DNA of 64,000 nt, from positions 743,501 to 807,500 of the forward strand of contig NC_023137.1 of the NCBI RefSeq assembly GCF_000511385.1. Direction: 5' to 3'. The notes under the pieces were generated by a model. The model had not been told where the DNA came from. It saw only the letters and a list, made by a program, of their open reading frames with translations, and ran no database searches. Below are positions 43,293 to 46,659 of this stretch, piece after piece. The DNA is from Phaeobacter gallaeciensis DSM 26640. Its GTDB lineage: Bacteria; Pseudomonadota; Alphaproteobacteria; Rhodobacterales; Rhodobacteraceae. The translations under genes and the position numbers were made by a program. Within the stretch, counting starts at the first letter, position 1, and every line of letters starts with the position of its first letter.

Positions 43293-44864
43293 TCAGGTGA
43301 TATCCTTGTAGGAAATCTCACGTGTGTCGGCGCCTTCGCCCATCTTGTCGCGACGGATGATCAGCCGGTTCAGCGCGCCGATATAGGCGGCGGCCGAGGC
43401 GACAACCGTGTCGGTGTTGGCGCTTTCGCCGGTGGCGATAACGCCGTCTTCTTCCAGTCGGACAGAGACGGTGGCCTGCGCATCGGTGCCTTCGGTCACC
43501 GCATGGACCTGATAGAGCTGCAGATGCGCGGAGTTCGGGTGGATCTTGCGGATCGCTCTGAAGGCGGCATCAACCGGGCCGTCGCCTTCTGCGGTTTCCG
43601 TTACATCCTTGCCCTCGACCTCCATCTCAAGGGTTGCCTCAGCCGGACCACCGGTGCCGCAGACGACCTTCATGGAGACCAGCTTGAGGTGATCATCCTC
43701 ATCACCACTGGTGCGCATCAGGGCGATGATATCGTCGTCAAACACCTCTTTCTTGCGGTCGGCGAGTTCCTTGAAACGGACAAAGAGATCCTTCAGCTGG
43801 TTGTCGCCCACCTCAAAGCCGAGCTGGCTGAGCTTGTCGCGCAAGGCTGCGCGACCGGAGTGTTTGCCCAAGGGCAGCGAGGTGCCGGCAATGCCCACGT
43901 CCTCGGGCCGCATGATTTCAAAAGTTTCCTTGTTCTTCAGCATACCATCCTGATGGATGCCGCTTTCATGAGCAAAGGCGTTCTTGCCCACGATCGCCTT
44001 GTTCGGCTGCACGACAAAACCAGACACCGTGGAGACCCGGCGCGAGATATGCATGATCTTTTGGGTGTCGATGCCGGTGGTGAAGGGCATAATGTCGTTG
44101 CGCACCTTCAGCGCCATGACGACCTCTTCCAGCGCGGTATTGCCGGCGCGTTCGCCGAGACCATTGATGGTGCATTCAATCTGCCGTGCCCCACCAGCAA
44201 CCGCCGCCAGAGAGTTGGCCGTCGCCATGCCAAGGTCGTTGTGACAATGGGTGGCAAAGATCACGTCATCTGCACCCGGAACTGTTTCGATCAGGCGCTT
44301 GATCAGATCGGCGCTTTCGACCGGGGCGGTATAGCCCACGGTATCAGGGATATTGATGGTGGTTGCACCTGCCTTGATGGCGATTTCGATCACCCGGCAG
44401 AGGTAATCCCACTCCGTGCGCGTGGCATCCATCGGTGACCATTGCACATTGTCGACCAGATTGCGGGCGTGTGTGACCGTCTCGTGGATCTTCTCGGCCA
44501 TCTCATCCTTGGTGAGGTTGGGAATGGCGCGGTGCAGGGGCGAGGTGCCGATAAAAGTGTGGATGCGCGGCTGGGCGGCGCGTTTCACCGCTTCGGCGCA
44601 GCGGTCGATATCTTTGAAATTGGCGCGCGCCAAGCCGCAGATCCGGGAGTTTTTGGAGCGTTCTGCAATCTCGCTCACTGCTTTGAAGTCGCCTTCGGAG
44701 GCAATGGGAAAGCCCGCTTCGATAATATCGACGCCCATGTCGTCGAGCAGCTCGGCAATCTCAAGCTTTTCGTCATGGGTCATGGTTGCGCCGGGGCTCT
44801 GCTCGCCATCGCGCAAAGTGGTGTCGAAGATCAAAACGCGATCTTTGTCAGCTGCGGTCGTCAT
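43293..44864 (-). CDS. leuA: 2-isopropylmalate synthase LeuA
   Basis: 523-residue first committed enzyme of leucine synthesis (2-oxoisovalerate plus acetyl-CoA). The catalytic TIM barrel starts VLIFDTTLRDGEQSPGATM and has HCHNDLGMATANSLAAV for metal binding; the C-terminal LeuA allosteric domain (about 390-510) binds leucine. The ATG at 44864 is used because the enzyme begins a few residues before the barrel; the upstream frame runs through the leader region. Expression is probably set by the leader peptide and hairpins at 44915-45034, feedback by leucine on top of that. Confidence 0.97.
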   Translation of the reverse strand: MTTAADKDRVLIFDTTLRDGEQSPGATMTHDEKLEIAELLDDMGVDIIEAGFPIASEGDFKAVSEIAERSKNSRICGLARANFKDIDRCAEAVKRAAQPRIHTFIGTSPLHRAIPNLTKDEMAEKIHETVTHARNLVDNVQWSPMDATRTEWDYLCRVIEIAIKAGATTINIPDTVGYTAPVESADLIKRLIETVPGADDVIFATHCHNDLGMATANSLAAVAGGARQIECTINGLGERAGNTALEEVVMALKVRNDIMPFTTGIDTQKIMHISRRVSTVSGFVVQPNKAIVGKNAFAHESGIHQDGMLKNKETFEIMRPEDVGIAGTSLPLGKHSGRAALRDKLSQLGFEVGDNQLKDLFVRFKELADRKKEVFDDDIIALMRTSGDEDDHLKLVSMKVVCGTGGPAEATLEMEVEGKDVTETAEGDGPVDAAFRAIRKIHPNSAHLQLYQVHAVTEGTDAQATVSVRLEEDGVIATGESANTDTVVASAAAYIGALNRLIIRRDKMGEGADTREISYKDIT

Positions 44865-44914
44865 GTCGGTATCTTTCTTGTCTGTCCTAAAATCCAATCC
44901 TTGGCGCGCATGCC

Positions 44915-44954
44915 TTCCCCTCTGAGCGGGCGCGCCGGATGGCACGCTCAGAGG
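44915..44954 (-). promoter_or_regulatory. leuA attenuator hairpins
   Basis: On the minus strand CCTCTGAGCG (44954-44945), which includes the leader stop codon, pairs perfectly with CGCTCAGAGG (44928-44919). Overlapping this, GGCGCGC (about 44938-44932) can pair with GCGCGCC (about 44911-44905) further on. The two stems exclude each other, as in transcription or translation attenuation. A long T-run right behind the first stem is missing, so the exact mechanism is open. Confidence 0.65.
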
Positions 44955-45034
44955 CGGATTAGGATCAGTAGGGCGCGCAGATCTGCACCGCGAAACGCGG
45001 TGGCGGAGCGAAGGATATCTGCACGCATGGTCAT
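44948..45034 (-). CDS. leuA leader peptide (attenuation)
   Basis: 28-codon frame starting ATG ACC ATG at 45034, sequence starting MTMRADILRS and ending RALLILIRL followed by TGA. Its last seven residues contain four Leu and two Ile, two of them encoded by the rare CTA codon. The stop codon lies in the 5' arm of the first attenuator stem, so a ribosome stalled for charged tRNA-Leu or finishing the peptide would choose between the two stems. It lies 83 bp before leuA. Too short for usual gene calling; support is from codon content and geometry, not homology. Confidence 0.75.
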   Translation of the reverse strand: MTMRADILRSATAFRGADLRALLILIRL

Positions 45035-45159
45035 GACGCTGAGTTATACAGAGCCGAAGGCGAATGGGAAGACAGAATTTATGTGCACGGGGCCAAAGCT
45101 CGCGACTGTCGCCCATGCGCCCATGTCAGAGGGACCAAAATCAGAAACGATCCCTTGGA

Positions 45160-46659
45160 TCAGTTGCTGGCACCGTCGGCATTGGGAGCTGCGGTGTCAC
45201 TGGCCTGATCTTCGCGGGTTGTCTCATCGCTGCCCTGCGTGGTGCCACCAGTGGTTTTCAGCGCGCCGTTTTCCCAGGTGCCTTCGGCCTCCTGACCGCT
45301 GGCGTAACGCATCACGCCGGGGCCCTGTCGTTTGGAGTTGAGGAAGCTGCCCTCATAGACGTCGCCATTGGCATAGGTGGCCACGCCCTTGCCGCTGATC
45401 TTGCCCTCGGTCCAGTCGCCCTCATAGCTGAAGCCATCGGTCATCACGATCTTGCCGGTGCCATGACGCTGGCTGTTGGCAAAACTGCCAGTGTAGACCG
45501 AGCCGTCAGGGTAGGTGACGACCGCATCGCCGTGGCGCTGGCCGTCTTTCCAGCCGCCCTCGTAGCGGTAACCATCGGGATAGGTCATTACGCCCTGGCC
45601 GTGGTTCTTGGCGTTCTTGAACGCGCCGGTATAGACCAGCCCGTTGGGGTAGGTGGTGGTGCCGGTGCCCTCAATCACGCCGGCCACCCAGTCGCCTTCG
45701 TAGGTGGAGCCATCGGGATAGGTGATTTTGCCGACCCCATCCGCGAGATCATCGCGGAATTGCCCTTCATAGACCGAGCCGTCGGGATAGGTGACGCGGC
45801 CCTTGCCTTCGATCTGACCGGCCAACCATTCGCCGGTGTAGACATAGCCGTCGGTCTTGGTGAAGGTGCCCTCGCCGTGGCGCAGGTCGTCCTCGAAATT
45901 GCCGATATAGACATCGCCATTGGCGTGGATCTGCTTGCCCTCACCCTGACGGCGCCCGGCCACCAGCGGGCCTTCGTAGACGTCGCCATTAGGCTGCGTC
46001 AGCACCCCGGTGCCATCCATCTGGTTCGCGGCCCAGTCACCTTCATAGACCAGCCCGTCGGGCATGATCAGCTTGCCAGTGCCCTCCAGTTGTCCATCGC
46101 GGATATCGCCTTCATAAGTGGCGCCGTCGGGATAGGTGATCTTGCCGCTGCCGTTCTTCAGGCCATCGACCCAATCGCCGTCATATTGATAGCCGCCGGG
46201 GTTGCGCATAAGGCCCTTGCCGTGGTGTTTGGCATCGCGGAATCCGCCCTCATAGCGGGCGCCGTTGGCATAGACCGCGACGCCCTGACCGTTGATCACC
46301 CCGTCTGACCACTCCCCCTCGTAGGTGCCGCCATCGGCGAAGGTGATTTTGCCCGCGCCCTCCGGTTTGCCCTTGGCGAACTCGCCCTCGTAGACGGAGC
46401 CGTTGGGAAAACGCGCGACGCCACGTCCGCGCACCTCACCGTCGACCCAGTCTCCGGTGTATTCATAGCCGTTGGGCAGGGTGTAGGTGCCGGTGCCATG
46501 CTGCAACCCGCCGCGGAAGGTGCCCTCATAGATCCCGCCGATTTCATCCTGCGTGGTCAGGACCTTGCCATCGTCTTGTGCCAGGGCCGGGCGGATCCCC
46601 CCGGCGGCGCCAAGCGCCAGGGCAGAGGTCAAAAGAGCAGCGGTGGAAAAACGGGTCAT
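45160..46659 (-). CDS. Secreted MORN-repeat protein
   Basis: 499 residues. After a signal peptide (cleavage after PALA, about residue 27) come 18 consecutive 23-residue MORN repeats and one degenerate one, each of the type YEGDWVAGVIEGTGTTTYPN (the unit is 69 bp at DNA level), ending in a short Gly/Thr/Asp-rich tail. Repeats alternate between W- and F-type fifth positions, as in a regular beta ladder. MORN repeats bind lipids or proteins and form extended rods; in roseobacters such secreted versions are unstudied to my knowledge. Faces nadE; tandem DNA repeats make it prone to copy-number change. Confidence 0.9.
   Translation of the reverse strand: MTRFSTAALLTSALALGAAGGIRPALAQDDGKVLTTQDEIGGIYEGTFRGGLQHGTGTYTLPNGYEYTGDWVDGEVRGRGVARFPNGSVYEGEFAKGKPEGAGKITFADGGTYEGEWSDGVINGQGVAVYANGARYEGGFRDAKHHGKGLMRNPGGYQYDGDWVDGLKNGSGKITYPDGATYEGDIRDGQLEGTGKLIMPDGLVYEGDWAANQMDGTGVLTQPNGDVYEGPLVAGRRQGEGKQIHANGDVYIGNFEDDLRHGEGTFTKTDGYVYTGEWLAGQIEGKGRVTYPDGSVYEGQFRDDLADGVGKITYPDGSTYEGDWVAGVIEGTGTTTYPNGLVYTGAFKNAKNHGQGVMTYPDGYRYEGGWKDGQRHGDAVVTYPDGSVYTGSFANSQRHGTGKIVMTDGFSYEGDWTEGKISGKGVATYANGDVYEGSFLNSKRQGPGVMRYASGQEAEGTWENGALKTTGGTTQGSDETTREDQASDTAAPNADGASN

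Follow-up and report, generated by a model that had tools for sequence, protein, structure and literature searches.

Upstream of leuA in Phaeobacter gallaeciensis DSM 26640, on the minus strand of the 64,000-nucleotide stretch of DNA analysed here (the window), a short leucine-rich reading frame is followed by overlapping RNA helices; this leader is conserved and probably leucine-responsive, and we infer its function throughout from the comparison of sequences. With a confidence somewhat better than even, we regard it as an alphaproteobacterial LEU-type element, namely a leader-peptide-controlled RNA switch that would act mainly on the translation of leuA. Judged by its architecture, the element is a variant of the LEU element, which is known from Actinobacteria but unexplained, and it occurs here in another phylum, for which we found no description. 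The features of the region, all on the minus strand, are as follows.

45063..45071, minus: -35-like box CTTCCCATT (clade majority CTTTTCATT), from the majority letters at -23..-15 from the -10 box
45043..45048, minus: -10-like box TATAAC, ending 8 nt before the leader ATG, from the box spacing over loci
45034 (ATG)-44948 (TGA), minus: leader peptide frame MTMRADILRSATAFRGADLRALLILIRL, 28 codons, stop UGA
44956..44972, minus: 5' arm of P3, the Leu/Ile codons, of which CCUA, GAUCC and AAUCC pair in the best window duplex
44951..44971, minus: putative sensor codons CTA CTG ATC CTA ATC CGC CTC, from codon counts over 106 loci
44945..44954, minus: 5' arm of P1, CCUCUGAGCG, containing the UGA stop, 98.2% of cells paired (38 sequences)
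44930..44936, minus: 5' arm of P2, GGCGCGC, inside the P1 loop, from the own-versus-permuted test (n = 106)
44919..44928, minus: 3' arm of P1, CGCUCAGAGG, from the stem check over loci and the 38-sequence alignment
44903..44909, minus: 3' arm of P2, GCGCGCC, putative H-type pseudoknot with P1, on a comparative basis
44885..44900, minus: 3' arm of P3, GGAUU GGAUU U UAGG (A), with 5 + 5 + 4 pairs in the best duplex
43293..44864, minus: leuA, 2-isopropylmalate synthase, the presumed controlled gene, from an annotated ortholog 99.4% identical

The leader peptide and its promoter

An earlier note on this DNA had pointed to a 28-codon frame with its own ATG upstream of leuA, and this frame is found on the minus strand at 45034-44948 with the end described there: the last seven codons, reading L L I L I R L, comprise four Leu and two Ile codons and include two CTA. 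For comparison, 80 leuA loci and 30 others from genomes of the family were collected, which gave 109 loci including the window (79 + 29 + the window) once a partial locus and a copy of the window itself had been set aside; five of the loci are from Hyphomicrobiales and most of the others from Rhodobacterales. A Leu-rich leader with P1, defined by a TGA stop, at least three Leu in the last nine codons and a stem over the stop with at least 8 of 10 pairs, is present in 107 of the 109, the exceptions being L067 (7/10 pairs) and L070 (no leader). Only two of the 107 are without an in-frame ATG, namely L027, which is cut by the contig end, and L078, which has other start codons only. When leaders were picked on Leu content with any stop, they mostly ended in ..LLLLSRL, ..LLILIRL or similar, followed by TGA; by this procedure L027 gave a wrong frame and L070 none. 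The earlier note had named an alignment of related leuA leaders as the means of its own refutation, and there the frame, the Leu codons and both of its stems proved to be conserved. On this comparative ground, the leader before leuA is a conserved element and not a chance frame.

Codons -4, -5, -6 and -7 are Leu in 106, 85, 102 and 85 of the 106 distinct loci, respectively. Codon -5 is Ile in a further 18 of the 106, so that the Ile codons are not the conserved part and Ile is not conserved as a sensed residue. Codon -4 is CTA 52 times and CTT 51 times, i.e. one or the other in 103 of the 106 distinct loci, as against 1.1% (CTA) and 8.6% (CTT) of the Leu codons in leuA genes; the leaders were selected on Leu content, and codon choice lies outside that selection. 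Neither codon is much used in leuA genes. The third base of codon -4 covaries with the 3' arm of P3. The rest of the leader peptide varies among loci in both length and sequence. Many Rhodobacteraceae leaders share a triplet, A-H-I or A-D-I (CATATC/GATATC), around residues 5-7, which in the window is at 45022-45014.

In 74 of 105 loci, TATAnn lies 4-13 nt ahead of a leader ATG that is in frame, compared with 1.3% for a random 10-position window, a contrast somewhat flattered by the trial of several in-frame ATGs per locus. Among the 91 loci with at least four of six box matches, the distance from box to ATG is 7 or 8 nt in 81. Judged by this spacing, transcription probably starts at the leader AUG or beside it, and the leader frame would be leaderless, as reported for the S. 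meliloti trpL attenuator (PMC10117765).

Helices P1, P2 and P3

P1 is a stem of 10 bp (44954-44945 with 44928-44919) with the UGA in its 5' arm, and a second GC stem, P2 (44936-44930 with 44909-44903), begins in the P1 loop, in agreement with the earlier statement that the leader stop lies in an arm of one of two overlapping stems. The two had been taken for alternative hairpins, which they need not be: the loop lengths, 8 (L1), 1 (L2) and 9 nt (L3) in the window, fit an H-type pseudoknot in which both stems can coexist. These lengths are narrow among the 106 loci, with L1 of 5-12 nt in 95, L2 of 1-3 nt in 98 and L3 of 6-12 nt in 96. In the alignment of 38 sequences, P2 is paired in 88.6% of cells, and changes on both sides are seen at two of the ten P1 pairs and two of the six P2 pairs. 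The arms of P2 vary jointly (GGCGCG, GGUGCG, GGGCGC, GGGUGC, CCGGGC and their partners, GGCGCG-like letters pairing with CGCGCC-like ones) and score 2116 with their own partners versus 1862 +/- 27 with permuted ones (best of 2000 = 1945, n = 106), and the loop letters vary among loci. P2 and P3 are set apart by added sequence in L028, L030, L053, L054, L075 and L084, and some of these loci have a hairpin-like repeat there (e.g. CCCGAAG..CTTCGGG).

A third helix, P3, was missed in the earlier note and extends, at 44885, outside the range given there. It is formed by UCCUUAGCC-like letters of the Leu codons and GGCUAAGGA-like letters ahead of the next start codon; the window duplex has an energy of -16.6 kcal/mol, and the register common to other genera is UCCUAA (44964-44959) with UUAGGA (44890-44885). 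Own arms score 1375 versus 1014 +/- 30 for permuted arms (best of 2000 = 1135, n = 104), and the duplex energy over 104 loci is -1413 versus -1114.5 +/- 25.9 (best of 5000 = -1209); such permutation tests, that of P2 included, are inflated by the relatedness of the loci. A control leader segment gave no effect in the same duplex energy permutation (-1099 vs -1119 +/- 27). Among the 38 aligned sequences, which were taken from the 109 loci partly because P3 is visible in them, six of nine P3 pairs change on both sides, as do 64 cells versus 19.0 +/- 3.3 in shuffles. Per-locus dinucleotide shuffles reached p<=0.05 in 38 of 106 loci for P2, 32 of 104 for P3 and 7 of 104 for the control segment; since most of these tests are not significant alone, the argument rests on covariation, which is found in P1, P2 and P3, and on the permutations.

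The position of P3 relative to the next gene differs among the loci. For the window, and for the majority of relatives whose leader adjoins leuA, about 20 nt separate the end of P3 from the leuA ATG, and the helix lies upstream of the probable Shine-Dalgarno sequence (SD), adjoining it but off it. In four Paracoccus loci, the 3' arm ends 10-11 nt before the leuA ATG, and in seven loci with another gene between leader and leuA (L008, L021, L086, L090, L098, L099 and L112), the best 3' arm ends 4-9 nt before the ATG of the intervening gene, which is the place of an SD. The arm carries an SD-like motif no more than 14 nt from the leuA start in 21 of 46 loci of other alphaproteobacteria. The placement in these three groups of loci favours control of the translation of whichever gene comes first. 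The intervening gene of L021 (1081-1437) encodes a cupin domain (PF07883, E = 1.7e-12; domain scan of L021 only).

Possible mechanism of control

No U-run follows either window stem in a terminator scan of the region, and at least five U in eight follow P1 or P2 in only 3 of 106 loci. What the earlier note had recorded for the first stem, the lack of a U-run, is therefore general (103 of 106 loci); the view offered there, that the switch could act on translation or on Rho and not through an intrinsic terminator, pointed in the right direction, and with U-runs in only 3 of 106 loci the intrinsic terminator is not a remaining rival. The one terminator-like site in the region (45162-45148) is upstream of the leader, not at the stems. 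Comparison thus supports a conserved frame, codon choice, P1, P2 and P3, together with the missing U-run.

We infer the following course of events. Transcription probably begins at the leader AUG. When leucine is plentiful, ribosomes would clear the Leu codons and be released at the UGA, and the RNA would then fold into the P1 + P2 pseudoknot. P3 would close it by pairing the Leu codons with purine-rich RNA immediately ahead of the ribosome-binding site (at the site itself in part of the relatives), so that leuA would be held down. When charged tRNA-Leu is short, a ribosome would stall on the Leu codons and, since these are one strand of P3, prevent the helix, and leuA would be translated. If this model is true, the case would be one of amino-acid attenuation in which the sensed codons directly form the repressing pairing.

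In nested folding of 95 loci, without the pseudoknot, the P3 3' arm is unpaired with a mean probability of 0.25, which becomes 0.50 once a stalled ribosome is masked; the value increases in 82 of the 95 loci. A ribosome at the stop codon opens the arm as much (0.50), and discrimination must therefore come from dwell time. The start region rises only from 0.56 to 0.60-0.61 with a stalled ribosome and opens in 55 of the 95. The P3 arm of the window goes from 0.15 to just 0.25 with the ribosome masked, and the window start region is 0.84 unpaired without a ribosome, 0.62-0.64 with a stalled one and 0.65 with a ribosome at the stop; a simple hiding of the SD in the window is unsupported by nested folding. 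For the family, translational repression by P3 is thus the preferred interpretation; it is less certain for the window, where some 20 nt lie between the arm and the ATG and the start is open in nested folding.

Classical amino-acid attenuators, e.g. the leu and trp leaders of E. coli, combine overlapping RNA stems with a short frame that contains end-product codons. The present leader shares both properties; it differs from them in having no terminator U-run, and in that the regulatory codons are themselves one strand of the switch. In translational attenuators of antibiotic-resistance genes of the ermC type, a ribosome that stalls on the leader exposes a ribosome-binding site otherwise hidden, and the stalling is drug-dependent. 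Here, in contrast, the proposed stalling would follow the charging of tRNA-Leu, and the stalled codons would be the hiding strand.

The main rival that remains is Rho-dependent attenuation or, more broadly, attenuation of transcription, with P1 as antiterminator and with either the GC-rich P2 or Rho acting on ribosome-free RNA to end transcription ahead of leuA when leucine is plentiful. The geometry is that of a classical leader, in which a stall at Leu codons would leave P1 intact and a ribosome at the UGA would break P1 and free P2; moreover, P3 is off the SD in the window, nested folding shows no hidden start, and another alphaproteobacterium, S. meliloti, possesses the leaderless trpL attenuator (PMC10117765). 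However, 103 of 106 loci have no U-run behind P1 or P2, P2 alone would close a loop of about 20 nt, and the conserved pairing of the Leu codons is given no role, which makes this explanation rather improbable.

Relation to the actinobacterial LEU element and distribution

According to the description of the LEU element before leuA in Actinobacteria (Seliverstov, Putzer, Gelfand and Lyubetsky 2005, PMC1262725), its leader contains a Leu run, the codons of which pair with the SD in a base stem, and the RNA also includes a pseudoknot. The alphaproteobacterial element resembles it in its position upstream of leuA, in the Leu-run leader (107 of 109 loci) and in the pseudoknot downstream of the Leu codons. 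The two differ at the base stem, which lies on the leuA SD in Actinobacteria, whereas P3 usually ends about 20 nt before leuA and is on the SD only in part of the relatives, and at the stop codon, which is inside the 5' arm of P1 here and, by eye, in the loop in the actinobacterial loci L209 and L213. Among plasmid records, Leu-run leaders were found before leuA in Microbacterium (L209), Nonomuraea (L213), Tsukamurella (L212 and L214) and Nocardia (L215), and those of L209 (MQFGLLLLSCRDESSD) and L213 (ending in RGLLLSCRGGGL) have similar peptides; no Leu-run leader was seen at two Streptomyces leuA loci (L210 and L221). The leuA leader of Corynebacterium glutamicum, likewise actinobacterial, has a run of four consecutive Leu codons and is called a putative attenuator leader in an RNA-seq study (PMC4046766). 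Of six actinobacterial sources searched with the alphaproteobacterial model, one (L213) gave a match (E = 3.5e-4) and five gave none. The likeness may reflect either common descent with the actinobacterial LEU element or convergence.

Leader mutations of S. coelicolor leuA did not behave as in classical attenuation (Craster 1999, as reported in PMC1262725), and the actinobacterial element has been unexplained since 2005, its structure suggesting attenuation and the Streptomyces codon mutations not. On the strength of these mutations it was proposed for Actinobacteria that a regulatory protein binds the folded RNA and that the leader frame is mainly structural (PMC1262725). For the present element this seems quite unlikely, because the frame, its start, the promoter spacing and the Leu run are kept while the loop letters vary, and because close homologs of the proposed protein are said to be confined to Actinobacteria (PMC1262725), whereas the present element is alphaproteobacterial. 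Action mainly in trans, through the peptide or a derived small RNA as with the peTrpL and rnTrpL of S. meliloti (PMC10117765), is very improbable, as the conservation sits in the pairing codons and the remaining peptide varies in length and sequence, even if the unexplained A-H-I or A-D-I triplet near the N-terminus would suit it.

More tentatively than for the element itself, and with the odds in our view slightly against it, the LEU-type elements could be a translational attenuator of ancient origin that is shared across phyla and serves, in Alphaproteobacteria as in Actinobacteria, as the default control of leuA by leucine. The sensing codons would then be an antisense strand (CUCCUU/CUUCUU against AAGGAG-like sites) closing a pseudoknot over the start region, so that the sensed codon and the lock would be the same nucleotides.

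No Rfam family (release 15) reaches the gathering score in the window leader or in five actinobacterial and five alphaproteobacterial relatives, and the element is thus a family missing from Rfam; near-matches in the region (LDH1_5p_UTR with E 0.037, tpke11 and Bcj11) are far below gathering scores and were taken as chance. The term "previously unlabelled" in the earlier note is therefore true of Rfam, but the same architecture had been described in Actinobacteria in 2005 (PMC1262725). No paper on an alphaproteobacterial leuA leader was among the literature matches listed (titles and abstract starts), and an earlier mention is possible in comparative studies of attenuation such as Vitreschak 2004 and Lopatovskaya 2010, which probably treat proteobacterial leaders.

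A covariance model covering P1 and P3 matches 239 of 248 genomes of the family, with one match each except in G107; the 38 sequences behind the model come from much the same group as the genomes searched. In all 37 genomes compared by eye, the element shares contig and strand with the leuA match and precedes it by 14-425 nt. The window's own genome has no credible second copy, the next matches having E = 0.059, 0.72 (opposite strand, same place) and 5.3. The model hardly reaches other orders: only 11 of 385 genomes of the class match, of which five are of the same family among those listed and six are weak (E = 5.8e-4 to 0.0074). Of the weak ones only G290 adjoins leuA; G302 and G325 are on another contig, and G299, G473 and G601 are absent from the leuA listing.

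Other Alphaproteobacteria were represented by 80 leuA upstreams taken from 97 places. In 54 of the 80, a frame picked without regard to pairing has, at the corresponding position ahead of its stop, a Leu codon with A as the next base, and P1 has at least 9 of 10 pairs in 47 of these 54 frames (47 of the 80 upstreams). When 8 of 8 P1 pairs were required, 46 of the 80 upstreams were retained, some of them dubious (e.g. L133). Over the 54 frames, P1 scores 507 with its own partners versus 476.5 +/- 3.7 with permuted ones (best 490), and P3 in other alphaproteobacteria scores 755 versus 666 +/- 19 (best 730). Ten of the 54 leaders stop with UAA or UAG, and eight of these ten keep all 10 P1 pairs, whereas L200, with 7/10 P1 pairs, is probably not a leader. 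Leader stop and P1 thus covary elsewhere in the class, and for this reason a +1 frameshift at the stop was dropped as a candidate. In Rhodobacteraceae nearly every leuA is preceded by the element, which is also common in other Alphaproteobacteria; closely similar to the actinobacterial one and with covariation in all three helices, it offers an independent system for settling the mechanism of the latter. Leu-run leaders were also seen before leuA-type genes in Sphingomonas, Shinella, Sinorhizobium meliloti pSymB, Cupriavidus and Gemmatirosa of the Gemmatimonadota (L216-L220).

A Phaeobacter inhibens record that shares the leader and stems encodes a LeuA 99.4% identical to that of the window. 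This record (L211, NZ_CP081282.1), 17.9 kb long and called a plasmid of P. inhibens M650, carries leuA and its leader beside rlmJ, and its leuA may be plasmid-borne or the record may be a stray chromosomal piece. The next long frame upstream of the leader in the window, on the same strand (45160-46659, minus), encodes a 499-aa protein full of YEGDW-like repeats, which we take to be of the MORN type. A cobalamin riboswitch (RF00174, 119.5 bits) at 2757-2970 on the minus strand is the sole Rfam match in the window.
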